NCBI RefSeq assembly: GCF_000966285.1
Contig: NZ_KQ031391.1
Coordinates: forward strand, 1,270,919-1,334,918
DNA: 64,000 bases
Source of the DNA: Pseudofrankia sp. DC12
GTDB lineage: Bacteria > Actinomycetota > Actinomycetes > Frankiales > Frankiaceae
Direction of reading: 5' to 3'
Positions 2,055 to 64,000 of this stretch are shown one piece after another (the first letter of the stretch is position 1; the number at the start of each line of letters is the position of its first letter). A model generated the notes under the pieces. The model did no database searches, had not been told where the DNA came from, and worked only from the letters and a program-made list of their open reading frames with translations. The position numbers and the translations under genes were made by a program.

Positions 2055-2106
2055 TCGTTCCGCAAGGCTGTTGATGTTGCTGTCAACCGTCTTGTGGAGG
2101 TGGTGG

Positions 2107-3471
2107 ATGTCGGTGTCGGACGCCGAGATGGCGCGGCGGGCGGAGCGGGCGCGTGCGGTGGGCCTGTTCCGCTACGGGCTGGTGCGGGAGGCGGCGGACC
2201 CGGGGCTCTCGGCGCGGGCGCGGGGCCGGCTGGTGCGCCAGTTGGCGGCTGGGGAGCATGCCGGGCCGGACGGGACGCCGGTGCGGGTGTCGCGCAAGAC
2301 GCTTGACCGGTGGATCCGGGCGTGGCGGGTCGGGGGGTTCGACGCGCTGGTGCCCGCGCCCAGGCGGGTGGAGGCGCGCACCCCGGCCGAGGTGTTGGCG
2401 TTGGCCGCCGCGCTCAAGCGGGAGAACCCGGCGCGCACCGCGGCGCAGGTCGGGCGGCTACTGCGCGCGAGTTCGGGGTGGGCGCCGTCGGACCGCACGC
2501 TGCAGCGGCATTTCGAAGCCCTGGAGCTCAATACCCGGCCCGACGGGACGGCGCCGGCGGCGTTCGGCCGGTTCGAGGCCGATCGTCCCAACGACCTGTG
2601 GATCGGGGATGCGTTGCACGGGCCGCCGGTCGCCGGCCGCAAGACCTACCTTTTCGCTTTCATTGACGACCGTTCCAGGGCGCTGGTGGGCTACCGGTTC
2701 GGCTATGCCGAGGACTCCGTCCGTCTCGCGGTAGCGTTGCGGTGGGCGCTGGCCTCGCGCGGTGTTCCCGCCGCTGTCTACGTGGATAACGGCTCGGCGT
2801 TCGTGGACGCGGCGCTGCGCCGGGCCTGCGCAGTCCTCGGGATCAGACTCATACATTCCACCCCGGGCCGGCCCGAGGGCCGGGGGAAAATCGAACGTTT
2901 CTTCGAGACTGTTCGGGGCGAGTTCCTCGTCGAGATCGCCCCGGTCGGCACCCATGTGTTCGGTGACCTGTCGGCGTTGAACAACGCGTTCACCGCCTGG
3001 GTGGAGACGGTCTATCACCGCCGGGTGCATTCCGAAACACAGATGGCGCCGCTGGCCCGCTTCGAGGCCGGCGGCCCGTTCACCCATCCCAGCGACGCCG
3101 CCCTGGCCGAGGCGTTCAAGTGGGAGGAACACCGCAAGGTCCGCAAGACCGCGACGATCTCCCTGCACGGCAACACCTACCAGGTCGAACCGCACCTCGT
3201 CGGGCGCACCGTCGCCGCCGTCTACGACCCGTTCGACCTGTCACACGTCGAGATCCGCTGGCAGGGCCGCCCCGCCGGGGTCGCGATCCCCGCCGTGATC
3301 GGCCGCCACGCGCACCCGAAAGCCCGCCCCGAGACCCCGCCCACCCCACCACCGGCGGCGACCGGCATCGACTACGTCGACCTGCTCACCGCCGCCCACG
3401 ACACCGAGCTCGCCGCCGCGACCATCAGCTACGCGGCGGCCACCGCCCCCACCGGCCAGGACACCCCGTGA
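2107..3471 (+). CDS. DDE integrase-type transposase (TniA/IS481-like)
   Basis: About 454 aa from the ATG at 2107, which has a GGAGGTGG ribosome-binding site; an upstream ATG at 2071 is in frame but less likely. The N-terminal third is HTH-rich (VSRKTLDRWIRAWRVGGFDAL). The rve catalytic core shows the three acidic residues in order: first Asp in DLWIGDALHG, second Asp in VYVDNGSAFV, and Glu in GRGKIERFFETV. The C-terminal part after HGNTYQVEPHLVGR resembles the Mu transposase C-terminal beta domain. The stop overlaps the next start (GTGA), indicating translational coupling with the small gene and the ATPase. It catalyses strand cleavage and transfer. All catalytic residues are present, so the element looks autonomous. 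Confidence 0.9.
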   Translation: MSVSDAEMARRAERARAVGLFRYGLVREAADPGLSARARGRLVRQLAAGEHAGPDGTPVRVSRKTLDRWIRAWRVGGFDALVPAPRRVEARTPAEVLALAAALKRENPARTAAQVGRLLRASSGWAPSDRTLQRHFEALELNTRPDGTAPAAFGRFEADRPNDLWIGDALHGPPVAGRKTYLFAFIDDRSRALVGYRFGYAEDSVRLAVALRWALASRGVPAAVYVDNGSAFVDAALRRACAVLGIRLIHSTPGRPEGRGKIERFFETVRGEFLVEIAPVGTHVFGDLSALNNAFTAWVETVYHRRVHSETQMAPLARFEAGGPFTHPSDAALAEAFKWEEHRKVRKTATISLHGNTYQVEPHLVGRTVAAVYDPFDLSHVEIRWQGRPAGVAIPAVIGRHAHPKARPETPPTPPPAATGIDYVDLLTAAHDTELAAATISYAAATAPTGQDTP

Positions 3472-3689
3472 CCGGCGCCCACCTCGACGACGCCCTCGCC
3501 CTCGCGCACCGCGCCGCCGACCTCGCCCACGCCGCCGCCACCCTCGCCGACCCCTACCACACCGACGACCAGCTCCTCATCGCCGAAACCGTCCTGACCA
3601 CCGCCCTCGCCGTCGAACGCCTCGCCACCACCCTCATCGACCAGTGCATCGAGGACCCAAACCCCGACCAGGAAGGACCCAGCCGGTGA
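3468..3689 (+). CDS. Small alanine-rich helical protein between transposase and ATPase
   Basis: A 73-aa gene with a GTG start overlapping the transposase stop and a stop overlapping the ATPase GTG start, so it is translationally coupled on both sides. It is almost entirely alpha-helical by composition (Ala/Leu-rich, many Thr and Asp), with no recognisable motif. Its fixed position between the two core genes suggests an accessory transposition factor or an adaptor between transposase and ATPase. That role is inferred from context only. Confidence 0.65.
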   Translation: MTGAHLDDALALAHRAADLAHAAATLADPYHTDDQLLIAETVLTTALAVERLATTLIDQCIEDPNPDQEGPSR

Positions 3690-4501
3690 GCATCGACCGG
3701 ATGCAGGCCCACTACGGCTTCACCCGCATGCCCTTCGGCCGCGACCTACCCATCTCCGCGCTGCACCGCCACCGCGCCCACAACGAGGCCGTCGCCCGTA
3801 TCGGCTGGCTCATCCACACCCACGGCCTCGGCGTACTCACCGGCGAGGTCGGCGCCGGCAAGACCGCCGCCACCCGCGCCGCCACCGCCACCCTCGACCC
3901 GTCGCGGAACACCGTCGTCTACCTGCCCAACCCCGCCGTCGGCGTCCGCGGCATCCACAACGCCATCGTCACCGCCCTCGGCGTCACCCCCCGCTTCCAC
4001 CACGCCACCCTCGTCCCCCAGACCGCCGACGCCCTCGCCGCCGAAACCACCGAACGCGGCCGCCACGTCATCCTGATCATCGACGAGGCCCACCTCCTCG
4101 ACACCACCCAACTCGAGGCCGTCCGCATGATCACCAACGCCGACATGGACTCCGCAAGCCCCCTGACCTGCCTCCTGATCGGCCAGCCCACCCTGCGGCG
4201 CCGCCTCAAACTCGGCGACATGGCCGCCCTCGACCAGCGCATCACCCTGCGCTACACCATGCCCGGCCTCGACCCCGACGAGACCCGCGCCTACATCACC
4301 CACCACGTCCGCTTCGCCGGCCGCTCCGACACCCTGTTCTCCGACGACGCCATCGACCTCATCCACACCACCGCCCGCGGCCTGCCCCGCGCCGTCAACA
4401 ACCTCGCCATCCAAGCCCTCATCGCCACCTACGCCCAGAACAAGACCATCGTCGACCACGCCGCCGCCCGCACCGCCATCACCGAGGTCACCACCGAATG
4501 A
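3686..4501 (+). CDS. AAA ATPase, ExeA/TniB/TnsC-like transposition protein
   Basis: 271 aa from a GTG that overlaps the previous stop. The N-terminal segment HYGFTRMPFGRDLP is typical of ExeA-family ATPases. Walker A is GEVGAGKTAATR (about residues 50-61), Walker B is VILIIDEAH (about 128-136), and a sensor region follows (LLIGQPTLRRRL). In Tn7/Mu/Tn5053-type elements such ATPases choose targets and activate the transposase. The reading frame is intact. A strong hairpin ends the operon about 50 bp downstream. Confidence 0.9.
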   Translation: MSIDRMQAHYGFTRMPFGRDLPISALHRHRAHNEAVARIGWLIHTHGLGVLTGEVGAGKTAATRAATATLDPSRNTVVYLPNPAVGVRGIHNAIVTALGVTPRFHHATLVPQTADALAAETTERGRHVILIIDEAHLLDTTQLEAVRMITNADMDSASPLTCLLIGQPTLRRRLKLGDMAALDQRITLRYTMPGLDPDETRAYITHHVRFAGRSDTLFSDDAIDLIHTTARGLPRAVNNLAIQALIATYAQNKTIVDHAAARTAITEVTTE

Positions 4502-52820: not shown

Positions 52821-53300
52821 CTATGGCCGTTGCGCTCCTGCTGGCCACACGATGTCGACGGTCTTTCCAGTGTTGTAGGCGTATGCAACGACGTCCGCGG
52901 TGCCACCGAAGCCGCGGCTGGGCTGGCCGTCCCATACAGCAATGAGCAGGTCGGCCTTGTCTACGAGCCTTTCGCTGGCGTCTTGATGCGCGGTCGACTC
53001 GGATGCTTCGTGTGGAAGAGCTACGATGCTGGTGGCTTCGCCGAGTAGCTCGTCGTACAGCGCGTGATGTGTCTCCGGAAGGCCCTCGCGGTAGCGTGTC
53101 GCCGGGACAACGACTGTCAGCTGCCCGCCGTGGTTTAGAACTTCCTGCGCGAAGATGCTGTCGGGGCCGTCGGCGATGCAGCTGATTCCGACGAGGTCGG
53201 GGCCTTCGTATCGGCTGAGGATTTTGAGGATCTCGCTGCGGGCGTAGTCCTCGATGTCGGCGGGCAGTCCTCGGTGACCTGTGATCCCGATCGTGGGCAT
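52821..53300 (-). CDS. SLOG-superfamily (nucleotide-related ligand-binding) protein
   Basis: 159 aa. The Rossmann-like pattern IGITGHRGLP, LVGISCIADGPDSIFAQEVL, LTVVVPATRYREGLPETHHA and LLIAVWDGQPSRGFGGTADV fits SLOG/TIGR00725-like domains. SLOG domains bind or process nucleotides or NAD-derived signals, often in conflict systems. It starts 10 bp after the XRE gene on the same strand, so the two form an operon. The ligand is unknown; a role as ligand sensor for the divergent operon is inference. Confidence 0.82.
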   Translation of the reverse strand: MPTIGITGHRGLPADIEDYARSEILKILSRYEGPDLVGISCIADGPDSIFAQEVLNHGGQLTVVVPATRYREGLPETHHALYDELLGEATSIVALPHEASESTAHQDASERLVDKADLLIAVWDGQPSRGFGGTADVVAYAYNTGKTVDIVWPAGAQRP

Positions 53301-53310
53301 GTGTGGTCCT

Positions 53311-54672
53311 TCAGATATCGGCGGGGTCGGTGCCGTGCAGTGCCGCGTCGAACCGGCGGATCTCTTCTGACGTTGTCTGGCCGGGGATGGCGTGCCGGGT
53401 GTGCCAGGCCGCGCGTATGACTCGCTGGGAGCTTGTCGGTGCGGCGGTGACCAGCGCGTGGGTCGCGAGTGCAGCGCACTGGTCGTAGTCGCCGGCCTGC
53501 GCGTGCGCGTCTGCTTCGCGCAGGAGGGTCAGCCCGTGCTGTGCGTTGCGGTTCGGGTTTGTGCCGGCCGTGAGGTCGCGGGCGGCATCGAGGGCGACCT
53601 GAGGGCGGCGCAGGTCGACGGCCGCGGTGAGCCGGTAGCCGGCGAGTTTGGCCTTGTCGAAACGCATGATCCACGGCCAGGGCGGCGCCTCGCCGTGGGG
53701 AATTCGCCCGACAGCGGTCTCCGCTGCGTCCAGACTGCGCCACGTCTCGTGCTCGTCGCCGGCAGCGGCATAGACGGAGGCAGACACGGCGTCCATCCAG
53801 GCATCGGCCACCGGGTGCCGGCGGACGGGGAGTGCCTGTTGTGACCTCCCTACAAGGAGGACCGCTCGGTGCAGGTCGCCTGTCTGGGCGGCAAATGCAG
53901 CGGCGCTCCCTAGCATGTAGGCGGGCAGTGTCGGGTGGCCTGACGCACGGGCGAACCGAACCGCCGTGCGGTAGTGGCGTTGCGCTGAGCCGATCTCCCA
54001 CGTATCCCACGCGAGCCAGGCCAGGAATCCGAAGCCCTCGCTCGCTGCCTCGTGCGCCGATGCGACGGTCTCCTCGTCTCCGGCGGCGACGGCCACGTCT
54101 CGTAGCAGCCGTAGGTGACCTGCCACGATGTCGGCGAGTTCCGTCGGGGGCAGGGTGCCGTCGCGCAGCCGCTGCGCGGACAAGGCGGCGCGCAGCACAG
54201 CGACCTGGGCAGCTGGTTCTCGCTGCAGGGTGACCAGGTATGACTCCAGATGCGCCAGCGCACTGAGTCCAGCGGCGCCAGCGAGAAAGTCTCGACGGTG
54301 GATCATCGATAGTTCATCCCACTCGGAAAGAGCTGTAACACCTCCCGCCCCGGACAGGTGGGTCCCAGGGCTCGCCTCGACGCCCGCAGTGCGGTCAGGA
54401 GCGCCCGTCGTCTGTGTGACGTCAGACGTCCCGTCGCCATCAGTAGGTGCGGCATCAGCTCGCCGATCGATGGGAGCCGCGACGCGGACGCCGAGTGCCT
54501 GCTCGTAGTCGCGGATGAGCGCGGGTGTTGCCTCACGACTTCCGGTCTCGACCCGGCTGAGATGGCCTTTGTCGCGGTCGATCATGCGGGCGAGTTGTCC
54601 GAGGCTGATTCCGCAACCCAGGCGTGCGGTTCGCAGGTCGTTGCCTCTGATCACGTCATGGTCTCCCGCCAT
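53311..54672 (-). CDS. XRE-family regulator with TPR-like C-terminal domain
   Basis: 453 aa from the ATG at 54672 (MAGDHDVIRGNDLRTARLG). HTH: ISLGQLARMIDRDKGHLSRV followed by ETGSREATPALIRDYEQALG. A low-complexity linker (about 80-140) and a helical segment MIHRRDFLAGAAGLSAL lead into alpha-solenoid repeats (about 165-450) typical of actinobacterial XRE-TPR regulators. It reads divergently from the queC operon, with a 27-bp inverted repeat between them, so it probably controls both sides. Confidence 0.88.
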   Translation of the reverse strand: MAGDHDVIRGNDLRTARLGCGISLGQLARMIDRDKGHLSRVETGSREATPALIRDYEQALGVRVAAPIDRRADAAPTDGDGTSDVTQTTGAPDRTAGVEASPGTHLSGAGGVTALSEWDELSMIHRRDFLAGAAGLSALAHLESYLVTLQREPAAQVAVLRAALSAQRLRDGTLPPTELADIVAGHLRLLRDVAVAAGDEETVASAHEAASEGFGFLAWLAWDTWEIGSAQRHYRTAVRFARASGHPTLPAYMLGSAAAFAAQTGDLHRAVLLVGRSQQALPVRRHPVADAWMDAVSASVYAAAGDEHETWRSLDAAETAVGRIPHGEAPPWPWIMRFDKAKLAGYRLTAAVDLRRPQVALDAARDLTAGTNPNRNAQHGLTLLREADAHAQAGDYDQCAALATHALVTAAPTSSQRVIRAAWHTRHAIPGQTTSEEIRRFDAALHGTDPADI

Positions 54673-54763
54673 ACGGACCGCACTGAAGCGGCTCCAACGT
54701 ACCGCCGGTCGCACTGCCTAGACGGGACATACGCGACCTGGTCGTCGCCTCATCTGCGCTGAC

Positions 54764-54790
54764 CGTTGCCGCAACACTGTGGCGGCAACG
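54764..54790. promoter_or_regulatory. Perfect inverted repeat between the XRE gene and queC
   Basis: CGTTGCCGC-aacactgtg-GCGGCAACG is a 9-bp perfect inverted repeat with a 9-nt spacer in the divergent promoter region (54673-54908). It lies about 90 bp upstream of the XRE start and 120 bp upstream of queC. It is a candidate operator for the XRE protein. Confidence 0.55.
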
Positions 54791-54908
54791 GGCAACAGCG
54801 ACAAGTCCATCACTGACCGCAATCCTCGTCGTTGGGCGTGAGTGGACGCGGAGGTCTCGCAGCGCGCTCGATTTTGCTCCGCCTCATGCCTGTTGGTGGC
54901 ACTCGTAG

Positions 54909-55622
54909 ATGAGAGGCACGGAGATGATCAATTCTTCTGTTCCATCGGGGTCGAGCGCGGTGGTGGTCGCTTCAGGCGGCCTGGACAGTACGACGCTCGC
55001 CTATCACCTGGCAGACGGCGGTTATGGGCTGCGGCTGGTCTCGGTCGACTACGGCCAACGGCATCGTCGCGAGTTGGACTTCGCAGTGGCGCTGGCTGGA
55101 CGGCTTGATGTGCCGCATGACGTGATCGACCTGCGCGCGGTGGGGCGGCTGCTGGCCGGTAGCGCGCTGACGGACGCTGCGGTCAGCGTCCCGGACGGCC
55201 ACTACACCGACGCCACGATGCGGATCACTGTCGTGCCGAACCGCAACGCGCTGCTGCTCGACATCGCGGTCGCGCTGGCGGTTGCGCATGGCGCGGGCGC
55301 GGTGGCCTTCGGCGCGCACAGCGGTGACCACGCTATCTACCCGGACTGTCGGGAGGAGTTCGTCCAGGCCTTCGAGTATTCGGCGCGGGTCGCGAACGAG
55401 GGGTTCGTGGCTGACGGGTTCCAGGTGCTCGCGCCGTTCCTGACCTGGACGAAGGCAGAGATCGTCCGGCGTGGTGCGCAGTTGGGTGTTCCGTTTGGTG
55501 ACACCTGGTCGTGCTATCGGGGCGAGGTCGCGCACTGCGGCACCTGCGGGACCTGTACCGAGCGGCGGGAAGCGTTCGTGCTCGCGGGGGTCACCGACCC
55601 GACTGACTACGTCGAGCGGTGA
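54909..55622 (+). CDS. queC: 7-cyano-7-deazaguanine (preQ0) synthase QueC
   Basis: 237 aa; the ATG at 54924 (MINSSVPSG) is an alternative start with GGCACGGAG in front. PP-loop motif VVVASGGLDSTTLAYHLA (about 18-35), then VSVDYGQRHRREL and VPNRNALLLDIAVALA. FGAHSGDHAIYPDCREEF is a QueC hallmark. The zinc site is SCYRGEVAHCGTCGTCTERR (four Cys). It converts 7-carboxy-7-deazaguanine to preQ0 with ATP and ammonia. It is the first gene of the 12-gene operon. Confidence 0.96.
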   Translation: MRGTEMINSSVPSGSSAVVVASGGLDSTTLAYHLADGGYGLRLVSVDYGQRHRRELDFAVALAGRLDVPHDVIDLRAVGRLLAGSALTDAAVSVPDGHYTDATMRITVVPNRNALLLDIAVALAVAHGAGAVAFGAHSGDHAIYPDCREEFVQAFEYSARVANEGFVADGFQVLAPFLTWTKAEIVRRGAQLGVPFGDTWSCYRGEVAHCGTCGTCTERREAFVLAGVTDPTDYVER

Positions 55623-55625
55623 GCG

Positions 55626-56006
55626 ATGTTCTCTATCGGGAAGCGGTTCACCTTCGACGCGGCGCATGTGCTGCACGGCCTGCCCGCCGGTCACAAATGC
55701 GGCCGGCTGCACGGTCACACCTACACCGTCGAACTGCACCTACAGGCCGACGGCCTGGTCGACCCGGGGTTCGTGACTGACTTCGCCGATCTGGCGCCGT
55801 TAGGCCGGTACCTCGATGAGCAGTTCGACCATCGGCTTCTTAACGACGTACTCGCTGTCGAGCCGACGTCGGAGGCATTGGCGGCGCATCTGTTCGGCTG
55901 GTGCACGCAGCATCTCGCGCCGACCCTTGCCTGCGGGCAGATTGTCGCGGTCCGGGTGTCGGAGACGCCGTCGAGCTGGGCCGAGTACCGGCAGACCTCG
56001 ACGTGA
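55626..56006 (+). CDS. queD: 6-carboxytetrahydropterin synthase QueD
   Basis: 126 aa. Zinc ligands in FDAAHVLHG and LHGHTYTVELHL, catalytic Cys in GHKCGRLHGH, and the catalytic His/Asp pair in FDHRLLND; then EPTSEALAAHLF. All active-site residues are present. It acts before QueE in preQ0 synthesis, producing 6-carboxytetrahydropterin from dihydroneopterin triphosphate. It begins 3 bp after queC and overlaps queE by GTGA. Confidence 0.96.
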   Translation: MFSIGKRFTFDAAHVLHGLPAGHKCGRLHGHTYTVELHLQADGLVDPGFVTDFADLAPLGRYLDEQFDHRLLNDVLAVEPTSEALAAHLFGWCTQHLAPTLACGQIVAVRVSETPSSWAEYRQTST

Positions 56007-56698
56007 GCGCCACGGTGCTGCGGGTGGCCGAGACGTTCGGTCCGACGTTTCAGGGCGAGGGGCCTGCGAGCGGGCAGCGCGCTCTGTTCGTCCGGCTGTC
56101 CGGTTGCCCGCTTGCCTGCCAGTGGTGCGACACGCCGTATACCTGGGATCGGTCTCGGTTTGACCTGGCCGCGCAGAGCCGGCAGGTCGAGGTCGCCGAG
56201 CTGCTCGGCTGGGTGCGGGGCCACGCTTGCGAGTTGGTGGTGTTGACGGGCGGCGAGCCTTTGGCCCAGCAGAGCGCGTTGATCGAGCTGGCCCGGTCGC
56301 TGACGGGCGATGGCCGTCGGGTCGAGGTCGAGACCAGCGGAATCATCGCCCCAGGCGGCGATCTGCTCGCCGCGGTGGCGCGGTTCGTGGTGTCCCCGAA
56401 GCTCGCCAACAGCGGTCTTCCGGAGCGCCGACGCATCCGACCCGACGCGCTGCGCGCGTTCGCGGCGAGCGGGCGGGCGGTGTTCAAGTTCGTTGCCTGC
56501 GATCCGAGGGACCTCGACGAGGTGGGGCAGCTTGTCGAGGACTACAGCTTGGCGCCCGTCTGGGTCATGCCGGAGGGCACCTCCGAGGAGCAGATCGGCG
56601 GCGGGCTGCGTGCGCTCGCCGGGCCTGTGCTTGCCAGGGGCTGGCATTTGTCCAGCAGGCTGCACATTGTCCTGTGGGGAGACGAACGTGGCCGTTGA
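56003..56698 (+). CDS. queE: 7-carboxy-7-deazaguanine synthase QueE (radical SAM)
   Basis: 231 aa from the GTG at 56003 overlapping the queD stop. N-terminus ETFGPTFQGEGPASGQRALF, then FVRLSGCPLACQWCDTPYTW with the CxxxCxxC cluster of radical SAM proteins. VVLTGGEPLAQQS and VEVETSGIIAPGG are typical QueE segments. The C-terminus WVMPEGTSEEQI matches QueE. It makes the 7-deazapurine ring. Its last 11 bases overlap the start of the RT-like gene. Confidence 0.95.
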   Translation: MSATVLRVAETFGPTFQGEGPASGQRALFVRLSGCPLACQWCDTPYTWDRSRFDLAAQSRQVEVAELLGWVRGHACELVVLTGGEPLAQQSALIELARSLTGDGRRVEVETSGIIAPGGDLLAAVARFVVSPKLANSGLPERRRIRPDALRAFAASGRAVFKFVACDPRDLDEVGQLVEDYSLAPVWVMPEGTSEEQIGGGLRALAGPVLARGWHLSSRLHIVLWGDERGR

Positions 56699-57641
56699 AA
56701 AGTCTGGTGAAGGACCTGAGCGGGGACGTCTTTCCCGTCGCCCCGGGCCGCGCGTGTGGGAGAGCGAACCCGTTATTGGGGGCGGCGGGAGCGTTCCTGC
56801 CGCTCAGGCAGTACCGACAATAGCAGAAAGTGCGCGGCTGCCGGCGACACATTCCCTGATGCCGCTGTTCGCCGACGAGAAGTATCTTCACCGGGCGGCG
56901 CGGGCGTGTATGCGTCGCCGTTCGGCGCCCGGGGCTGACAGGGTCACCTGGGCTCAGTACCGCCAGGGCCTACCCGAGCGGCTGCACGCGTTGAGTCGCC
57001 GGCTGTTCGACGGGACGTGGCAACCGGGCCCGCTGCGCCTCACCTCGGTCACGGCCTACACCGGCAAGACCTTCACGGTCGCGATACCGACCGCCGAGGA
57101 CCGCGTCGTACACCGCGCGCTGCGCGGCGCTGTCGAGCCCGTGTTGGAAGCGACCGTCCTCGCTCCCTGGGTGTCGGGCTACCGGCCTGGGCGCAATCGG
57201 ATCACCGCGCTGCGGACCGCGAGCAACCATCTCGCCAAGGGCCTGGGGTTCGTCGCGGACCTCGACGTGGCCCGAGCGTCCGAGGGCGCCACGGTGGACC
57301 AGGTGGTCGACTGGGTAGCAGCCCATGTCCACGACGGCACTTTCCTCGACCGGCTCCGGACGATCCTTGGCGGCCTTTCCGATCCGATGATCCCGGGCAG
57401 CGGCCTCGCCCCGCTCCTGATCAACCTGCGGCTTTCCCGGGTCGACGCCCGCCTCGCGCATCTGCCGGTGGTCCGGTTCGCGGACAACTACTGCGTCTTC
57501 ACCGCCACGCAGGACGCCGCCGTCCGTGCGTTCGGGGCCGTGACCGAGGCGCTCGCCGCGGAAGGCCTACGCCCGCACCTGACCAAGAGCAGGGTCCGGA
57601 CGGCCGCGAATGTCGAGGACCTGTTCCTCATCGCCGGGTGA
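56688..57641 (+). CDS. Reverse-transcriptase-like protein with altered catalytic motif
   Basis: 317 aa from the GTG at 56688 (GGGGAGA upstream), overlapping queE. It follows the plan of group II intron/DGR-type RTs: VAIPTAEDRVVHRAL (RT2, about 131-145), SGYRPGRNRITAL (about 163-175), motif A VADLDVARASEGATVDQVV (about 189-207), motif B-like GSGLAPLLINLRLSRVDARL (about 237-256), motif C VRFADNYCVF (about 262-271) and GLRPHLTKSRV (about 293-303). The usual xADD of motif C is FADN, so one catalytic Asp is Asn; motif B lacks the common QG. No intron maturase, HNH domain or intron RNA is apparent. It may be non-catalytic or have changed activity. The FGE-like gene follows 16 bp on. Confidence 0.8.
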   Translation: MAVEKSGEGPERGRLSRRPGPRVWESEPVIGGGGSVPAAQAVPTIAESARLPATHSLMPLFADEKYLHRAARACMRRRSAPGADRVTWAQYRQGLPERLHALSRRLFDGTWQPGPLRLTSVTAYTGKTFTVAIPTAEDRVVHRALRGAVEPVLEATVLAPWVSGYRPGRNRITALRTASNHLAKGLGFVADLDVARASEGATVDQVVDWVAAHVHDGTFLDRLRTILGGLSDPMIPGSGLAPLLINLRLSRVDARLAHLPVVRFADNYCVFTATQDAAVRAFGAVTEALAAEGLRPHLTKSRVRTAANVEDLFLIAG

Positions 57642-57657
57642 CCGAAAGGAGAGCCCT

Positions 57658-58206
57658 GTGTCCCTCACCTGGAGATTCGTGGAAGCGGGCACCTGCCTGT
57701 TCGGCGACCGGCTGCGTCCGATTGCCGTGCCCGCGCTGTGGTGGACCGCGACCCCTGTCACCTACACCGATCTGGGGAGCGGTCCCGGAACGGACATCCC
57801 GGTCACCATGGTCGACTGGGACGGCGCCTCCAACCTGGCACGCCAGCTTGGGGGCCGGCTTCCGCGGTCGGTCGAGTGGGAGTGGATGGCCGCCGGCCCA
57901 GGCCGACGCCGCTATCCGTGGGGCGACCATGAGTGGGCTCCGGGGAAGGCCGTCCTGGTGCCGGCCGGACACGAGCAGCCCCAGACGGCCGGGAGTTGCC
58001 CGCTGGGCGCGACGCCCGAGGGGTTGCTGGATGTGGCGGGCAACGTCTGGGAGTGGACCGCCACCACGGTGCTCGGCGGCGGCGCGGTCATCCGCGGTGG
58101 CTCGTATGCCTCGCCACCTCTCTACGCGCAGTGCACCTTCCTCAACGCCGCCCCGGCCGAGCTGCGTTCACCCGGCATCGGGTTCCGCCTGGTCCGAGAA
58201 CCATGA
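57658..58206 (+). CDS. FGE/SUMF1-like (C-type-lectin fold) protein
   Basis: 182 aa from the GTG at 57658, with GAAAGGAG in front. It is a short formylglycine-generating-enzyme-type domain: VDWDGASNLARQLGGRLPRS, VEWEWMAAGPGRRRYPWGDH, LLDVAGNVWEWTATTVLGGG, VIRGGSYAS and GIGFRLVRE. FGE-sulfatase domains of this kind are a frequent scaffold of DGR variable proteins, in which the region between NVWEWT and GFRLV is diversified. The Cys pair of true FGE enzymes is not evident. It follows the RT-like gene directly; a template repeat was not found. A role as a structural or ligand-binding part of the operon is possible. Confidence 0.8.
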   Translation: MSLTWRFVEAGTCLFGDRLRPIAVPALWWTATPVTYTDLGSGPGTDIPVTMVDWDGASNLARQLGGRLPRSVEWEWMAAGPGRRRYPWGDHEWAPGKAVLVPAGHEQPQTAGSCPLGATPEGLLDVAGNVWEWTATTVLGGGAVIRGGSYASPPLYAQCTFLNAAPAELRSPGIGFRLVREP

Positions 58207-58670
58207 CGACCCCCGGCCAGACCGCACCCGCAGTGATCATCGGCTGCTCACGGCGCAAGACGTCGACCACCGTCCCGATTCCGGCTCTCGACCTCTACCA
58301 GGGCGGCCGGATCCCCGAGCTGCGATCGGTCCTCGCCGACCAGCCCGACCTGCGGCGCCGCGTCTGGATCCTCTCCGCCGAACACGGCCTGATCCACGGT
58401 GGCACCCCGCTGCTGCCCTACGACCGGCGCCTCGATGCCGCGCGTGCGCTCGAGCTACGTCCCCAGGTCGCTCACGCGGCCGGCCGTGAACTGGCTGCTG
58501 GCGGTCCTCCCAGGGAGGTCCTGATCGTCGCCGAACCGCTCTATCTTCTGGCCCTTGCCGACCTGCCCGGCCTGCTCGCGCCCGGTCTCCTGCACTGGGT
58601 CGAGGACCCGGTCGGCGGCTGGCCGCGAGCCGAACAGATCCTCACGACCTGGAGCCAGCCATGCCGCTGA
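58203..58670 (+). CDS. DUF6884/YaaA-like protein
   Basis: 155 aa, ATG overlapping the previous stop. AVIIGCSRRKTSTTV, LDLYQGGRIPELRSVL and RVWILSAEHGLIHGGTPLLP..YDRRL form the GCSxxK...LYxG...ILSAxHGL...YD pattern of DUF6884-like proteins. From memory, similar domains occur with 7-deazaguanine or TGT-like enzymes, but I cannot verify this here. The conserved Cys-Ser-Arg-Arg-Lys and Ser-Ala-Glu-His suggest an enzymatic pocket. Function unknown; it may act on the deazaguanine base or its glycoside. Confidence 0.7.
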   Translation: MTTPGQTAPAVIIGCSRRKTSTTVPIPALDLYQGGRIPELRSVLADQPDLRRRVWILSAEHGLIHGGTPLLPYDRRLDAARALELRPQVAHAAGRELAAGGPPREVLIVAEPLYLLALADLPGLLAPGLLHWVEDPVGGWPRAEQILTTWSQPCR

Positions 58671-59704
58671 CCAGCACCCTCTCCGTCCGGGACACCCTTG
58701 CCCGGCGGGACAACGAGTACACCGACGCGCTGCGCCGATTCGAACAGCGCCACGAACTCGACTGGCACGCGCCGACACCCGCCGAGACCAGCGGCGGCGC
58801 GGTCTCGGTCGTCATCCCGGCGCGCAACGTCGCCTACTGCCTGGGCCAGGTCCTCGACGCGCTGCGCGCGCAGGACACCCGGGGGCCGTTCGAGGTCATC
58901 GTCGTTGATGACGCCTCCACCGACGCGACGTTCCGCGTCGCCGTTGGCCATCCGCTCGGGCCCACGGTCGTGCGGCTGCCGTCGCGGCAGGGCAGCGCCG
59001 CCGCCCGCAACGCCGGCACCGCGCTCGCGCAGGCGGACACCGTCCTCTTCCTGGACGCCGACATGGTGCTTCCGCCGCATGCCCTCGCGGACGTCGCTGC
59101 CCGTGCGACCGCGGACCTCGTGCTGGTCGGGTTTCGCCACAACGTGCCCTTCACCGCCGACGGCGATGGGCACGCGGTGGTCCCGGTACAGGCCGCAAGC
59201 CTGGCCGCGGACCTGCGGGTGCGGTGGACCCCGCCCGTCGAGACGGTCCTGCCCTACTCCGGCATCACGCTGACCGCTCCGCTCGATGGCCGGCCGCTGG
59301 ATGCCACCGACGACCTGCGCGCTTTGGGCGAGGGCCGGTGGTACTACGACTGGGATCTACCTCGCATGGTCGTCACCGCCGTCATGGCCGCGCCACGCGC
59401 CGCGCTCCTGGACGTCGGTGGTTTGCACGCCGCGTTCGGCAGGACGGGCTGGGGCTGCGAGGACACCTACCTGGGCGCGGTACTGATCGCCGCAGGGCTG
59501 CGGGTCGCCCCGTTGCGCCAGCTCGTCGGTTACCACCTCGACCCGCCAGACGCCCCCGCAGCGTGGGCGGCGAAGCTCGCCACCTGGCCTGACACCCTCG
59601 CGCTCTACCGCCGTCTACTCGCTCAACCGCCACCGGGCGGCCAATCCGCGGAGTTCCTGCGCGCCACCCGCGAGCTGCTGGCGGATTGCGAGGTGCTGTC
59701 GTGA
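58661..59704 (+). CDS. GT2-family glycosyltransferase
   Basis: 347 aa. GT-A fold: AVSVVIPARNVAYCLGQVLD, FEVIVVDDASTDATF, QGSAAARNAGTALA and the DXD-type metal site VLFLDADMVLPPHAL (about 127). The acceptor region contains WGCEDTYLGAVLIAAGLRV, the (E/D)D-xx-L segment of galactosyl/glucosyltransferases. No membrane segment is obvious. It overlaps the DUF6884-like gene by 10 bp and the radical SAM gene by 4 bp. The donor sugar is unknown; the acceptor could be a deazapurine or other nucleoside. Confidence 0.85.
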   Translation: MPLTSTLSVRDTLARRDNEYTDALRRFEQRHELDWHAPTPAETSGGAVSVVIPARNVAYCLGQVLDALRAQDTRGPFEVIVVDDASTDATFRVAVGHPLGPTVVRLPSRQGSAAARNAGTALAQADTVLFLDADMVLPPHALADVAARATADLVLVGFRHNVPFTADGDGHAVVPVQAASLAADLRVRWTPPVETVLPYSGITLTAPLDGRPLDATDDLRALGEGRWYYDWDLPRMVVTAVMAAPRAALLDVGGLHAAFGRTGWGCEDTYLGAVLIAAGLRVAPLRQLVGYHLDPPDAPAAWAAKLATWPDTLALYRRLLAQPPPGGQSAEFLRATRELLADCEVLS

Positions 59705-60645
59705 ACCGCACGGTCGCCGCCGCCGAGATCGGCGGGCAGACCATCGTCTACGACCCGCTCACCGGTCAGACCCGACTCGCCGACCGGCCGCTCCCGGCAG
59801 GCCGCCGGACTTACGACGACCGCGAGCTCGCCGGCTGGCCGCAGATCGACCCAGCCTCGCTGAACTCGGGCTGGCCGGTCTCGCTGTGCTGGTCGCCGCT
59901 GGTGCGTTGCAACCTGGCCTGTCCCCACTGCCTGGACGACAAACAGCTCCCCGAGCTGCCAGCGGCGGACCGTGCCCGCACCGGCCAGGCCATCGCCAGC
60001 TCCGGCGTCCTTGGCGTGGACATCTCCGGTGGCGAACCGCTGCTCCTCACCGACCTGCCCGACCTCGCCGATCTCCTCGTCGCCGGCGGCCTGGCGGTCA
60101 GTGTCACCACGAACGGCTGGCAGCTGGCGCGCCGCGCCGCAGCCCTGGCCAGGCACGTCGACGCGGTCCGCGTCAGCCTCGACGGGCCGGACCCCGACCG
60201 CCACGACGCCATGCGCGGTCGGCGAAGCTTCGACCGGGCCCTCGGCGGCATCGTCGCCGCCCGCGCTGCCGGCCTCCCGGTCCAGATCCAGACGGTGATC
60301 CGCGCCAGCCTCACCCGCCGCGACCTGCAGTGCCTTGTCGATCTGGCCGCCCGTCTCGGCGCGCAGGGGGTCACGTTCCTGCAGATGCTGCCGCTCGGCG
60401 AGGGCGCCGCGCTGACGGCCGAGCTCGTCGGTGACGCCGTCGCCCGCGCTCTTGTGGACAGCCTCGCCGTCCCCGCCGGTCTGGCCGTCCGGTTGCGGAC
60501 CCGCGCCGCCGCCGGCAACTTCACGGTCGTTCGCGCCGACGGCCAGGTCTGGCGCAACCAGCCCGACGCCGCCGGCATCGGCCCGACCGACCGCCTGCAC
60601 GGTCCGACCGGCTTGGCGTTGACGGCACCGGACGGCTCCGCGTGA
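59701..60645 (+). CDS. Radical SAM protein
   Basis: 314 aa from the GTG at 59701 overlapping the GT2 stop. Cluster motif LVRCNLACPHCLDD (CxxxCxxC, about 68-75), GVDISGGEPLLL, VTTNGWQLARRAAAL, DAVRVSLDGPDPDRHDAMRG and VQIQTVIRASLT. This is the layout of PqqE/MoaA-like SPASM-related enzymes, but the C-terminal Cys-rich SPASM domain is missing. Only the four-iron cluster site is visible. The substrate is unknown; in this operon it may modify the sugar or base. Confidence 0.87.
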   Translation: MNRTVAAAEIGGQTIVYDPLTGQTRLADRPLPAGRRTYDDRELAGWPQIDPASLNSGWPVSLCWSPLVRCNLACPHCLDDKQLPELPAADRARTGQAIASSGVLGVDISGGEPLLLTDLPDLADLLVAGGLAVSVTTNGWQLARRAAALARHVDAVRVSLDGPDPDRHDAMRGRRSFDRALGGIVAARAAGLPVQIQTVIRASLTRRDLQCLVDLAARLGAQGVTFLQMLPLGEGAALTAELVGDAVARALVDSLAVPAGLAVRLRTRAAAGNFTVVRADGQVWRNQPDAAGIGPTDRLHGPTGLALTAPDGSA

Positions 60646-61178
60646 CCGCCCGCGTGTTCGAGCACAGCCGCCTGTGGCGGTTGACGGCTCCCGCTCTCGA
60701 TCGGGCCGTCCAGCTGCTCGCCACCGCGGCCACCGAGAACTTCGGCGCTTTCACCCAGGTCGTCGGGATCGCCGACGGCGGCACCGTCCCCGCCACCCAG
60801 ATCGCGACCCAGCTCGGCGTCAGACCCACGATGGTGCGTGCCCGCCACAACCCGACCGACGCCCACTACAGCCCCGCCACCGGCCAGGTCTGGTGCGACC
60901 CAGGCGACCTCGCGCCAGCAGGCCGGGTCCTCGTCGTTGACGACATCTGCGGCTCCGGAGCCACCCTGCGGACCGTTGTCGCCGCGCTCGCCGAGCGCGC
61001 ACCGACCGGTACCCAGCTGGTCACCGCCACGCTCTGCCTGAACGCCGGATCCACGGCCCCACCCGACCTGTGGGTCTGGGCCGACCTCCGGGACTGGGTC
61101 GTCTTCCCCTGGGAGACCCAACCGCCCGCCGACACGATGACAGACCTGCCACTCCCCACGCAGGCGTACCGGCGATGA
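60642..61178 (+). CDS. Phosphoribosyltransferase
   Basis: 178 aa from a GTG overlapping the previous stop. Type I PRTase: VVGIADGGTVPATQIATQLG (PP-loop region), VRARHNPT, then the PRPP-binding motif RVLVVDDICGSGATLRTVVA and a C-terminal VWADLRDWVVFPWE resembling xanthine/hypoxanthine-guanine enzymes (XGPRT). It could attach ribose-5-phosphate to a purine-like base such as preQ0, which would link the queCDE product to the nucleotide and glycosyl steps downstream (inference). Confidence 0.87.
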   Translation: MTARVFEHSRLWRLTAPALDRAVQLLATAATENFGAFTQVVGIADGGTVPATQIATQLGVRPTMVRARHNPTDAHYSPATGQVWCDPGDLAPAGRVLVVDDICGSGATLRTVVAALAERAPTGTQLVTATLCLNAGSTAPPDLWVWADLRDWVVFPWETQPPADTMTDLPLPTQAYRR

Positions 61179-62296
61179 CCCCTGGCGGCCCACGCCCGAC
61201 CAGCGGCACTGTCCTGTTCGTCCTCGCGTCCTACCGGCGCGACGCACCCGCCGGGATCGAACGCGCCATCGCCGGCCTGACGACCGGGTTGAACGCCACC
61301 GGCCACCGGTCCCTCATCGCCACCGCAGCGCCGCACCCTCCCGACGACCCCGACGTGGTGCCGCTGCAGCTACCGGTGTCGTTCCCCTGCGACGACGACG
61401 CGCTACGCGCCTGCATCGAGAACAACCGCCCCGCGCTTGCCGCTCAGCTCGGCGCACTCGCGGCACGGACCCGCGCCGACGTCATCGTCTACGCGGACGC
61501 GCTCTGGGGCCTCGGCCGGATCGCCGCCGACCTCCCCGTCCGGGCCGTCCTGGCCGTCCACGTCGTCGGCGACCCCCAGGACCTCCGCCCCGCCCTCGAC
61601 TCCGCCGACACCGTGATCTCCCCGTCGGCCACCGTCCTGCACGAGGCGAACGCCCAGGGCTATCGGACGGACAGCTGGCGCGTCGTCCCCAACCCGCTGC
61701 TCATCGATCCCGACGACGTCCCCCGACCCGATGCCGCTGAGCGCGAACAGCTCCGCCGACGCGGGCCCGTCCGAGTCGCGGCCCGACTCGGACGCGAGAA
61801 GGGCGTCCTCGAACTCCTCGCCGCCCGACCCTCAGGCCCACGAACCCGCCCCGTCGAGGTCACGCTCGCCAGGGCCGGCTTCGAGGAACACCCCGGCGGC
61901 CAGACGACGCTGCTCGCCGCCTGCCAGACCGCCGCCACCGCAGCCGGCGCGACGTTGCATCCACCGCTGCGCTGGGCGCAGGTGCCCGCCTGGCTGGCCC
62001 GCGCCGCAGTGACCATCGTGCCGTCGCTGCGCGAGACCTTCGGCCTCGTCGCCGCCGAGTCCCTGTCCGCCGGCACACCCGTCATCGCCTACTCCGTCGG
62101 GAACCTGCCCGACCTCATCGGCGACGCCGGCATCCTCGTCCCACCCGACCGCGGCCCCGCCGGGCTTTGGGAGGCCGTGAAGACGCTACTCACTGATCCG
62201 CTACGCTACAGCGCAACGTGTGGTGCTGCGTACTACCGGTCACGGGACTATCGGCCCACCACTGTCGCTGACGCATTCCTGAAAGCGGTGTGGTGA
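61175..62296 (+). CDS. GT4-family (GT-B) glycosyltransferase
   Basis: 373 aa from the ATG at 61175 overlapping the PRTase stop. N-terminal domain: VLFVLASYRRDAPAGIERAI, GLTTGLNATGHRSL; C-terminal donor domain: VRVAARLGREKGVLELLAAR, VTIVPSLRETFGLVAAESLS and GTPVIAYSVGNLPDLIGDAG. The EX7E-like part (ETFGLVAAE) is intact. It is an ordinary cytosolic GT4. It probably transfers a sugar in the same pathway as the GT2 enzyme. Confidence 0.88.
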   Translation: MTPGGPRPTSGTVLFVLASYRRDAPAGIERAIAGLTTGLNATGHRSLIATAAPHPPDDPDVVPLQLPVSFPCDDDALRACIENNRPALAAQLGALAARTRADVIVYADALWGLGRIAADLPVRAVLAVHVVGDPQDLRPALDSADTVISPSATVLHEANAQGYRTDSWRVVPNPLLIDPDDVPRPDAAEREQLRRRGPVRVAARLGREKGVLELLAARPSGPRTRPVEVTLARAGFEEHPGGQTTLLAACQTAATAAGATLHPPLRWAQVPAWLARAAVTIVPSLRETFGLVAAESLSAGTPVIAYSVGNLPDLIGDAGILVPPDRGPAGLWEAVKTLLTDPLRYSATCGAAYYRSRDYRPTTVADAFLKAVW

Positions 62297-62299
62297 ACG

Positions 62300-63193
62300 A
62301 TGTCCCTGGTACCTCTCCTGCTCGTTGACGGGCACAACCTGCTTTACCGCGCCTGCTTCGCCACGCCCGCGCAGATCTACTCCCGGGATCCGGCTCGGCG
62401 TGACATCACGACCCAGTTCATGTTCTTCGCGCTGCTACGCAAGGCGATCACCGCCGAGCTCGCCGGCTGGCCTGAGGTCCTTGTCGTCTTCGACGGTGAG
62501 CACGGCGCCGCCGGCCGCCAGGCCGCAGATCCTGCCTACAAAGCCAACCGGCCTACTAACGAGGAGGCCCGCCGGCCGCTCGAAGCGCTGGCCGACATTA
62601 AGACCGGCCTCGACCTGCTCGCCGTCGCCTGGCTCGAATGCGAGGACGCCGAGGCGGACGACGCCATCGCCACCCTCGCCCACGCGGCCCGACCCGCCCG
62701 CGAGGTGCTGATCCTCTCGACCGACCAGGACTACTTCCAGCTCCTCACCGGGCCGGACGGGCTCGGCCAGGCGGTCCGCGTCCTCAACACCGCCCGCCAC
62801 CCCGGCAACCGCCTCCTCGGACCAGCCGACGTCCGCGCACGCTATGGCGTCGAACCCGCCCAGTTCCCCGACCTGCGCGCGCTCGCCGGTGACCCCGCCG
62901 ACAACATCCCAGGCATCCGCGGCATCGGGCCGAAGACCGCCGCCGCGCTCCTCGCCGACGGCCTCAGTCTCGACGACCTCCCAGCCTCCGGCCGCCTGAC
63001 CGGCACCCGAGGCGCCGCGATCCACACCGCATGGCCGCAGATCCTCGCCTGGCGCGACATGATCCGCCTGCGCCGTGACCTCCCAGTACCGCACGAGCCC
63101 GCTGGCACTCCGACCGCCGCGTTCCCGATCCCAGGCGAGATCATCACCAAACTCGGGCTCTGGTGGGCCGACGGCGCCCCCACGGCGCCATGA
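62300..63193 (+). CDS. 5'-3' exonuclease/flap endonuclease-like protein (Pol I N-domain family)
   Basis: 297 aa. LLLVDGHNLLYRACFA (metal Asp), EVLVVFDGEHGAAGRQ..ADPAYKANRP, ECEDAEADDAIATLA, ILSTDQDYFQLL and DLRALAGDPADNIPGIRGIG..PKTAAALL (H3TH). All acidic metal ligands of the Pol I 5' nuclease family are visible, so activity on flap or RNA/DNA 5' ends is expected. It starts 3 bp after the GT4 gene. Its presence in a deazapurine operon suggests nucleic acid processing, for example processing of modified DNA or of a nucleic-acid-linked product. Confidence 0.92.
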   Translation: MSLVPLLLVDGHNLLYRACFATPAQIYSRDPARRDITTQFMFFALLRKAITAELAGWPEVLVVFDGEHGAAGRQAADPAYKANRPTNEEARRPLEALADIKTGLDLLAVAWLECEDAEADDAIATLAHAARPAREVLILSTDQDYFQLLTGPDGLGQAVRVLNTARHPGNRLLGPADVRARYGVEPAQFPDLRALAGDPADNIPGIRGIGPKTAAALLADGLSLDDLPASGRLTGTRGAAIHTAWPQILAWRDMIRLRRDLPVPHEPAGTPTAAFPIPGEIITKLGLWWADGAPTAP

Positions 63194-63822
63194 CCGGGCC
63201 CGGAGCTTCTCGACGCTCCGCGCTGCTCGCGGTGATGGCCCACCCCGACGACGCGGAGCTGTGGGCCGGCGGCACCCTCGCGCTTCACGCCCAGTCCGCC
63301 CACGTCACCATCGCGATCCCGCCGTCAGACCCCGCCCGCCTCGCTGAGGCCGCTGCTGGCGCCGACATCCTCGGCGCGCACCTCCAGCTCCTCGACGATC
63401 CCGTGACGCCCCAGGCGCTGAGCGCTGTGCTGACGGAGCTACGTCCGGACGTGGTCATCACCCATCCGTTCGCCGATGTCCACCCGGACCACCGGGGCCT
63501 CGCGGCGTCCGTCCTCGCGGCCCTCCCCGACGCGGTCATCGCCACCGGCTTCCCGCGGCGGCTCTATACCTGCGACACGTACAACTCGCTGACCCTGGAC
63601 GGCCCACTCGCCGCCACTGCGATCATCGATATCACCCAGACCTACTCGACGAAGATGCGCGCCCTCGCCGCACACAGCACCACACAGCCCATCACCGATC
63701 ACTTCGGTCCCATGGCCGAAAACCTTGCCCGCCTCTGGGGAGCCCGCTGTGGCACCCACTACGCCGAACCCTTCACGGCCGTCCCGATCCTGGGACGCCT
63801 TCCCAGCGCATCTCATCTCTGA
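63190..63822 (+). CDS. PIG-L/LmbE-family deacetylase
   Basis: 210 aa from the ATG at 63190 overlapping the exonuclease stop. Zinc-binding motif LLAVMAHPDDAELWAGGTLA (HPDD) and VVITHPFADVHPDHRGLAAS (HPDHR) are both present. Such enzymes remove N-acetyl groups from GlcNAc-containing small molecules, as in mycothiol or glycopeptide pathways. Two glycosyltransferases precede it, so a GlcNAc-bearing intermediate is plausible. It ends the visible operon; 63823-64000 holds no recognised gene. Confidence 0.9.
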   Translation: MTGPGASRRSALLAVMAHPDDAELWAGGTLALHAQSAHVTIAIPPSDPARLAEAAAGADILGAHLQLLDDPVTPQALSAVLTELRPDVVITHPFADVHPDHRGLAASVLAALPDAVIATGFPRRLYTCDTYNSLTLDGPLAATAIIDITQTYSTKMRALAAHSTTQPITDHFGPMAENLARLWGARCGTHYAEPFTAVPILGRLPSASHL

Positions 63823-64000
63823 AATGCCAGCAGGACCCTCTCAACGTCCTGTATTCCGGGTCCGTGGAGCAAGGAGGAAACACAGTTCCGTCATCCCTGG
63901 TCGACAGCGGATCGAGCCAAGCGGATCTTCGTCGCCATGATGTGAAGCGGGATTCCCGCCCAGTGTGCTTCGGACCGCGCGGCGGTCATCGTTTGACGTC

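Follow-up and report, generated by a model that had tools for sequence, protein, structure and literature searches.

The RT-like gene and its catalytic box

The window analyzed here, the whole stretch of 64,000 nucleotides from Pseudofrankia sp. DC12 (contig NZ_KQ031391.1, positions 1,270,919 to 1,334,918), carries on its forward strand an operon in which queC, queD, and queE are followed by a gene for a reverse transcriptase (RT)-like protein (56688 to 57641) and, inside the 5' part of that gene's frame, by a conserved hairpin RNA element (56711 to 56826). We use the name RT* for the protein family to which this frame belongs. The frame encodes 317 amino acids, begins with GTG, and is open throughout; as claimed by an earlier note on this DNA, its start lies within the 3' end of queE (56003 to 56698), and its catalytic box, encoded at 57477 to 57488, reads FADN instead of FADD. 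The protein comprises fingers and palm only, with the motif A Asp codon at 57258 to 57260 (the motif names A, B, C, and D are those we take to apply), and its codons 9 to 46, which are read from the hairpin, fall outside the RT fold.

According to our analysis, RT* is a group II-type RT domain by both sequence and fold. The Pfam model RVT_1 scored 35.7 bits against a cut-off of 29.6, and the generic PADLOC model "RT (reverse transcriptase)" matched with an E value of 9.5e-36, a strong match that should serve as a warning for automatic annotation. The RT* profile found group II RTs as its closest relatives among Protein Data Bank (PDB) sequences (5hhj, E 2.5e-37), and TIGR04416 matched at E 1.2e-31, yet with 110 bits against a cut-off of 300. 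AlphaFold2, applied to five sequences, gave a best RT* model with a mean pLDDT of 79.3 and values of 51 to 65 for the other four, so that confidence is middling; the top Foldseek matches in the PDB were again group II RTs (7k9y, E 5.2e-14, TM 0.77). The window protein ends 17 residues past the motif D Lys, with no thumb or maturase domain behind the RT domain, and the 8 rows compared end alike. Moreover, no group II intron RNA family of Rfam was matched around the gene (window 54700 to 64000, E up to 1), and we rejected the identification of RT* as a group II intron, since no intron RNA was found nearby.

A scan of genome contigs retrieved five loci with 56 to 62% identity to the window RT*, all with FADN, and the removal of repeats from the full collection, in which the near-identical L029, L030, and L033, three of these five, were counted once, left 26 distinct loci for analysis. 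Asn occupies the box in all 26, two broken copies included, and an xADD box is absent; the box reads [AVT]DNY in 24/24 complete rows and DNY in the two broken ones, while DD is present in all 23 further RTs in the alignment, which were taken from genomes of the same class. The earlier note had left room for a decayed allele or for a fold other than RT, and had proposed Asn conservation among orthologues and structure prediction as checks; since Asn is fixed in the orthologues, which reside in the same type of operon, and the predicted fold is that of an RT, neither doubt stands. Its description of the protein as degenerate is not supported as worded either. Family-wide, both the motif A sequence FFD and the fingers sequence PKPGGxxR are indeed replaced, but motif A loses only its FF: its Asp stays in 26/26 rows, and all 24 complete rows also retain the Lys of motif D and the leading Asp of motif C. 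Of the claim that the QG of motif B is replaced, the half concerning Gln was right (P in 23 rows, A in 1, S in 1), while the Gly is retained in 25/25 rows covering that site. Across the 26 rows, 44 of 265 alignment columns are invariant when gaps are ignored. With the two Asp and the Lys of motifs A, C, and D in place, RT* may still be an active enzyme, as far as can be predicted from its sequence.

RT* is, as judged from sequence, a separate clade: its profile scores RT* frames at 276 to 465 bits and the next best protein at 142, and in a quick tree of 49 rows, for which the program flags long branches, a branch with SH-aLRT 100 sets RT* apart from the rest. In the two broken copies, an in-frame TAG stands just before the TDNY box (L090, about 9638) and a frameshift interrupts the gene (L091, 9146 to 10071), where the FGE-sulfatase-like gene discussed below is split as well; these breaks are either sequencing errors or signs of decaying operons. 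The genome of Pseudofrankia sp. DC12 also contains six RVT_1 frames of 448 amino acids with equal scores, which probably represent a single group II-type RT in several copies, and an RT frame of 320 amino acids.

A conserved hairpin RNA

Each of the 26 loci contains one hairpin element of 110 to 125 nucleotides (nt). The window copy scores 107.1 bits (E 5.6e-19) against our covariance model R1, of which it is one training row. Its outer helix P1 pairs 56715 to 56723 with 56800 to 56808 and shows two-sided changes in 6 of 10 pairs. Within it follow a 2-bp helix (56727 to 56728 with 56792 to 56793), one pair of which is CG in 18 rows and GC in 6, a long helix (56732 to 56744 with 56779 to 56790; two-sided changes in 7/12 pairs), and a terminal stem-loop (56747 to 56768; 3/5 pairs) with a conserved loop around GCGTGT that includes invariant columns.

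In an alignment of 24 sequences, 87.5% of cells pair, compared with 76.7% in shuffles and at most 52.2% in slid structures; the slid controls were relied on as well, since shuffles do not keep relatedness. Two-sided changes occur in 16 of 27 pairs (shuffles 11.9; as high in 3 of 500), and the covariation score of 0.374 (0.177 in shuffles) was reached by none of 500 shuffles. Further pair types are no more frequent than in shuffles, either in these 24 sequences (33 vs 33.4) or in 26 (33 vs 34.8). When 26 sequences were aligned with the model, an alignment fitted to the structure, 87.2% of cells pair and 104 are two-sided, vs 35.9. A consensus U-G pair (21 UG and 5 UA in 26 sequences) suggests a hairpin of RNA rather than of DNA. 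Since folding of single sequences gave mixed results (z of -2.76 for the window, -3.92 for L087, +0.52 for L029, and -0.32 for L090), the case for the hairpin rests on covariation. No Rfam family matched over the element in the window (E up to 1) or, at gathering scores, in L029, L070, L088, and L039.

The part of the RT* frame that is read from the hairpin bears the mark of this constraint. Among six frames of the operon type that we call clade I, mismatch at codon positions 1, 2, and 3 is 0.31, 0.34, and 0.35 in the first 20 columns of the N-terminal extension and 0.37, 0.35, and 0.44 over all its 64 columns, against 0.32, 0.27, and 0.50 in the RT* body; identical residues use the same codon in 81% (first 20 columns) and 72% (all 64) of cases vs 53% in the body. 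The extension thus evolves unlike a normal coding stretch, owing to the hairpin.

The hairpin also tracks RT*. The covariance model was trained on clades I and III only, and its sole match in each of the two clade II loci lies just before the FGE gene (E 6e-13 and 1e-11). Every other RT* locus, being a training row or a copy of one, has one strong match, the remaining matches have E values of 4 or worse, and none was found at four loci of ordinary RTs (L043, L044, L092, and L093). The Pseudofrankia genome holds a single copy. In one bacterial family, the same 13 of 297 genomes hold the hairpin, RT*, and an FGE orthologue (E 1.5e-45 or better, while four other genomes reach only 6e-28 to 8e-26); because those 13 supplied training sequences, this result speaks for specificity and co-occurrence, not for discovery.

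Operon content and spread

The operon occupies 8.9 kb of the window, all on the + strand. The gene for 7-cyano-7-deazaguanine (preQ0) synthase, queC, lies at 54909 to 55622 (TIGR00364, 1.5e-55, above cut-off), followed by queD at 55626 to 56006 (TIGR03367, 1.4e-25, 89.5 bits, barely above the cut-off of 89.25) and the radical SAM gene queE, whose match (TIGR03365, 8.4e-29) is below the equivalog cut-off and is complemented by operon position. Behind RT* are genes encoding an FGE-sulfatase-like protein of C-type-lectin fold (57658 to 58206; PF03781, 1.1e-22), a DUF6884 protein related to DpdC (58203 to 58670; PF21818, 1.6e-8; PADLOC DpdC, 3e-4), a GT2 glycosyltransferase (58661 to 59704; PF00535, 1.3e-24) and a radical SAM protein (59686 to 60645; PF04055, 1.4e-18), both confined to clade I, a phosphoribosyltransferase (60642 to 61178; PF00156, 8e-16), a GT4 glycosyltransferase of uncertain start (61172 to 62296; PF13692, 2.3e-20; PF20706 GT4-conflict, 2.3e-7), a 5'-3' exonuclease or flap-nuclease-type protein (62300 to 63193; PF02739, 1.2e-27; PF01367, 3.5e-18), and a PIG-L de-N-acetylase, again of uncertain start (63163 to 63822; PF02585, 1e-11). 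Comparison of the DUF6884 model in VIA placed AF0587 (Z 9.6, rmsd 3.4, 122 aligned) and Escherichia coli YaaA (Z 9.4, rmsd 3.5, 144 aligned) first, while Foldseek found nothing at E 0.001; a uracil-DNA-glycosylase type was rejected, as SMUG1 (Foldseek) and UdgX (Z about 5, VIA) were no better than unrelated rows.

Gene order divides the loci into three clades. In clade I (19 loci), queCDE is followed by the hairpin, RT*, FGE, DUF6884, GT2, radical SAM, phosphoribosyltransferase, GT4, exonuclease, and PIG-L genes, with folE between queE and the hairpin in L079. In clade III (5 loci), queCDE and the hairpin precede FGE, DUF6884, phosphoribosyltransferase, GT4, PIG-L, WbqC-like, RT*, a second GT4, and the exonuclease, and in clade II (2 loci) the que genes are followed by DUF6884, in part the phosphoribosyltransferase, PIG-L, WbqC-like, folE, the hairpin, FGE, GT4, RT*, a second GT4, and the exonuclease. 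Gene presence was determined by tblastn (E 1e-4) in stretches of 16 to 31 kb at the 26 loci, with an overlap rule that masks queD beside queE in 12 rows of the table. RT*, FGE, DUF6884, GT4, exonuclease, and PIG-L genes were each found in 26/26 loci, queC in 25 (not in L042), queE and queD in 25 each (neither in L029), and the phosphoribosyltransferase in 25 (not in L039). GT2 and the radical SAM protein occur in 19/26 loci, all of clade I, and the WbqC-like protein and second GT4 in 7/26, all of clades II and III; DegT aminotransferases (10/26) and MocA oxidoreductases (9/26) accompany some.

The joint presence of queC, queD, and queE in the window marks a 7-deazapurine cluster, and together with the lack of intron RNA it agrees with the earlier note, which had placed the gene in a metabolic (deazapurine) operon rather than in an intron. 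A dedicated supply of preQ0 is supported by folE, encoding GTP cyclohydrolase I, which lies inside or beside the operon in 11/26 loci (including L079, 9508 region, and L070, 17046). The transglycosylase model PF01702, present in 14/14 control genomes, had no match in the Pseudofrankia genome (E 0.001), which argues against a flow of this preQ0 into ordinary tRNA queuosine. On both sides the operon is flanked by a similar gene pair, in which a small protein that starts with GITGH accompanies an XRE/HTH regulator of some 470 to 520 amino acids, at 52821 to 54714 (- strand) and, in the sequence L118, at 1905 to 3999 (- strand), corresponding to 63986 to 66080 in window numbering; compared by eye, the pairs look like the outcome of insertion into, or duplication of, a regulator locus.

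RT* is patchily distributed. A search of the class (E 1e-35) matched 5 of 393 genomes (3 with RT*, 2 with ordinary DD RTs), searches of two families matched 10/394 and 15/297 genomes (in the latter, 13 with RT* and 2 with ordinary DD RTs), and a search of the phylum matched 2/168, namely the Pseudofrankia genome itself and one ordinary FADD RT. Among 146 genomes, which included Pseudofrankia sp. DC12 and seven congeners, the best match outside its own genome had 34% identity (E 2.7e-22). As the close relatives searched are without RT*, the gene was presumably acquired horizontally. Over 16,786 operon bases, L029, L030, and L033, from two Amycolatopsis strains and one Prauserella strain, differ by 0 to 2 bases; the stretch is identical between Amycolatopsis echigonensis and Prauserella flavalba, and 2 bases differ in Amycolatopsis tucumanensis. 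An identical operon in two genera implies recent transfer between them, and the operon is mobile between soil bacteria. A further RT* locus lies on a plasmid record (Embleya), and one comes from a viral-contig collection (L070, IMGVR_UViG_2896115756_000003), its 19,901 bases recurring unchanged within an 8.3-Mb contig of genome G553. Phage records yielded five distant RT matches of 24 to 29% identity.

Candidate roles and relation to known systems

From the RT* family with its fixed Asn, the operon, the hairpin, and their co-occurrence, all of which are observed, we infer binding, enzyme roles, and a product. Tentatively, we propose that RT* is the dedicated protein partner of the operon-encoded hairpin RNA in a 7-deazaguanine/sugar pathway, in which the resulting ribonucleoprotein would serve as a platform or substrate. 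QueD, QueE, and QueC would make preQ0, the nitrile of which the DUF6884 protein would probably hydrolyze, to judge by its kinship to DpdC (PADLOC E of only 3e-4), a protein spoken of as an amidohydrolase (PMC6884629; PMC numbers stand for the available excerpts of the articles, unless a main text is named). The phosphoribosyltransferase would join ribose phosphate, and GT4, GT2, and PIG-L would add and trim sugars by transfer and deacetylation; glycosylated preQ0-derived products exist, as illustrated by huimycin with its N-acetylglucosamine (PMC7439116). RT*, as a domesticated and shortened relative of group II intron RTs, would bind the hairpin and, with the 5'-3' exonuclease, form the nucleic-acid module of the pathway. 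Such a partnership is supported by the closest relatives of RT*, since group II RT proteins typically bind their own intron RNA (PMC12337344), as well as by the constant gene set, the single hairpin per locus, and the co-occurrence in the same 13/297 genomes; the proposal as a whole also draws on the kept metal-site residues of RT* and on the lack of a PF01702 match in the Pseudofrankia genome. Given the hairpin in the operon, the nucleic-acid-binding role that the earlier note had suggested is our best guess for RT*.

Several observations weigh against this proposal. In clades II and III, RT* is located two to six genes away from the hairpin, and because 7/26 loci lack GT2 and the radical SAM protein, and no WbqC-like protein or second GT4 was found in the other 19, the product may differ between clades. 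The element is moreover placed in a reading frame, that of RT* in clade I and that of FGE in clades II and III: in 26/26 loci its length is 2 mod 3 and its distance to the body of the next gene 1 mod 3, its own frame is free of stops, compared with 20 and 28 in the other two, and an in-frame ATG or GTG lies 12 to 48 nt upstream. With the frame kept, no stop, and such a start, the hairpin is probably translated. Our first reading, a plain intergenic noncoding RNA, is weakened by this arrangement, and the hairpin may act within the mRNA, for example in translational control.

In its strongest form, this objection makes the hairpin a regulatory site in cis on the operon mRNA, bound by a metabolite or by RT* close to where the following gene begins, with RT* at most a translational repressor or activator outside the chemistry. 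We consider it unlikely, though it is a serious contender. It would account for a hairpin that, in 26/26 loci, lies a short distance past one gene and continues in frame into the following one, standing after the preQ0 genes and before the rest in the 24 loci of clades I and III, and between folE and FGE in the two of clade II. However, a translated position is odd for a switch, different genes follow in different clades, and in clade II the DUF6884, PIG-L, and WbqC-like genes precede the hairpin; the kept metal-site residues of RT* and the exonuclease in 26/26 loci would also go unexplained. A platform or substrate for deazaguanine chemistry seems to us the more likely role of the hairpin than that of a mere switch.

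Somewhat less probable is that RT* is an active nucleotidyltransferase that would extend or copy the hairpin, possibly using a deazaguanine nucleotide supplied by the operon, after which the exonuclease would trim the result. The two kept Asp would bind metal, and Asn would replace an Asp that is no direct ligand: in the structure of G2L4 RT, the metal is bound by the first Asp of the box, and the second Asp points outward there as well as in group II and HIV RTs (PMC12337344), and birnavirus polymerases carry ADN in motif C (PMC3121795). It is on account of these two precedents that we retain an active RT* as a live rival, to which the conservation of the motif A Asp (26/26) and of the first motif C Asp and motif D Lys (24/24 complete rows) and the presence of the phosphoribosyltransferase (25/26 loci) and exonuclease (26/26) also lend weight. 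Against it stand the family-wide loss of the motif A aromatics, the PKPGGxxR fingers motif, and the motif B Gln, and a chain that ends before the thumb. More doubtful still is a scheme in which the operon would build a glycosylated 7-deazaguanine on its own hairpin, or by copying it, with the DN site of RT* adding or positioning an unusual nucleotide on the hairpin and the exonuclease releasing the piece. The operon would then be a biosynthetic pathway with an RNA scaffold and a retooled reverse transcriptase among its enzymes.

That selection acts on the encoded peptide, as a leader at the N terminus of RT* or FGE, and that the RNA pairing is incidental, is very improbable. The frame kept without a stop in 26/26 loci would suit it, and among codon differences of a single base the silent fraction is somewhat higher here (0.39) than in the other frames (0.30 and 0.32). 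Pairing, however, greatly exceeds that in shuffles and slid controls; of 1,298 two-sided compensatory comparisons, 1,031 replace the amino acids of both sides and 14 replace neither; and the mean BLOSUM score of 2.10 in this frame (1.91 and 2.13 in the others) is no better than the best other frame. In the silent and BLOSUM comparison each row was given one fixed offset, pairwise comparisons are not independent events, and the frame labels are approximate, since 2 stops appear in its frame zero vs none in the direct count. The middle of the peptide also reads differently in L083, where the RNA model still scores 94.7 bits. As compensatory changes mostly alter both amino acids and BLOSUM is not best in frame, selection on the element looks to be mainly RNA selection, and these changes, together with L083, led us to reject a peptide leader as the main constraint.

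Two further explanations are hardly credible. Decay of RT* from a group II intron or CRISPR RT, with loss of function, would fit the lost motifs and the 2/26 copies with broken frames, but it is refuted for the family by the fixed Asn, which is invariant over three operon clades together with the kept Asp and Lys, and by 44/265 invariant columns and a constant operon partner. A diversity-generating retroelement (DGR) was suggested by the adjacency of RT* and FGE-like genes in clade I, FGE target proteins being typical of DGRs (PMC7159879), but was rejected because the only direct repeat of at least 20 nt at 56600 to 58300, the region searched out of the whole genome, is a 23-nt pair at 78%, no template/variable repeat, and because the FGE C terminus is largely conserved over 24 aligned loci, not hypervariable.

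Among known RTs, those of group II introns (GsI-IIC RT and the Eubacterium rectale and Roseburia RT domains) are closest to RT* in sequence and fold; they differ in that RT* lacks a detected intron RNA, the maturase and thumb, and DD, has altered fingers and motif A, and belongs to a metabolic operon. As far as its described features allow comparison, G2L4 RT, a domesticated group II-like RT, resembles RT* in that it descends from group II RTs, stands alone as a protein, and carries an altered box (YIDD). It retains DD, however, along with the fingers, palm, and thumb, and its role is in DNA repair (PMC12337344); RT* is without a thumb and comes with an RNA and a biosynthetic operon. Likeness to the CRISPR RTs (RT-Cas1 and Cas6-RT-Cas1) is confined to the RT part (PADLOC Cas1_IIIb, E 1.1e-22; PDB 7kft, E 9.2e-13): in these DD is fully conserved, and a group with FADN is not seen in the excerpt on them (PMC4244168). 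No Cas1 or other Cas protein was found among the 14 window proteins scanned with Pfam, and a CRISPR array was not looked for. With retrons and DRT systems RT* shares an RT-fold gene and a conserved structured RNA in the same operon, but it has a DN box, an RNA within a reading frame, and biosynthetic partners, and the RT_UG and Drt models match it far more weakly than the generic RT model (best UG4, 5.5e-9 vs 9.5e-36).

Among deazapurine systems, the huimycin and toyocamycin clusters share homologues of queC, queD, queE, and folE, and the former also a glycosyltransferase, while an RT-like gene, a hairpin RNA, and an exonuclease are not mentioned in the excerpt describing them (PMC7439116). 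The Dpd DNA-modification islands have a DUF6884/DpdC-type protein, often with preQ0 genes (PMC11888242). They differ in their TGT-type gene, which was not found in the Pseudofrankia genome (PF01702, E 0.001; a very remote DpdA could escape this search). QTGAL and QTMAN are assigned to the GT2 and GT4 families. They resemble our proposal, by description and not by sequence, in placing a sugar on a deazaguanine nucleoside in RNA (PMC12518689), and differ from it since no transglycosylase was found in the Pseudofrankia genome. We recognized no description of an RT-like gene in a deazaguanine operon in the literature searched, for the most part titles and the openings of abstracts, and the term "reverse transcriptase" is absent from the main text of a 2026 QueC-family study (PMC13329287) and of the GATOR-GC preprint (PMC11888242).

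Every part of the system but the hairpin, which has no Rfam match, thus comes from a known family, while the combination and the DN-box clade matched no system described in the literature searched; on sequence grounds we regard the system as new in kind, though its function is a proposal. The set is compact enough to be directly testable, its box, hairpin, and exonuclease being separately removable, and the operon is found in named strains of Streptomyces, Amycolatopsis, Nocardiopsis, Prauserella, and Embleya. Domesticated RTs are known in defence, repair, diversification, and CRISPR. If our proposal is true, an RT-fold protein with its own RNA in a small-molecule operon would bring an RNA-protein particle into nucleobase and sugar chemistry, a use different from these.

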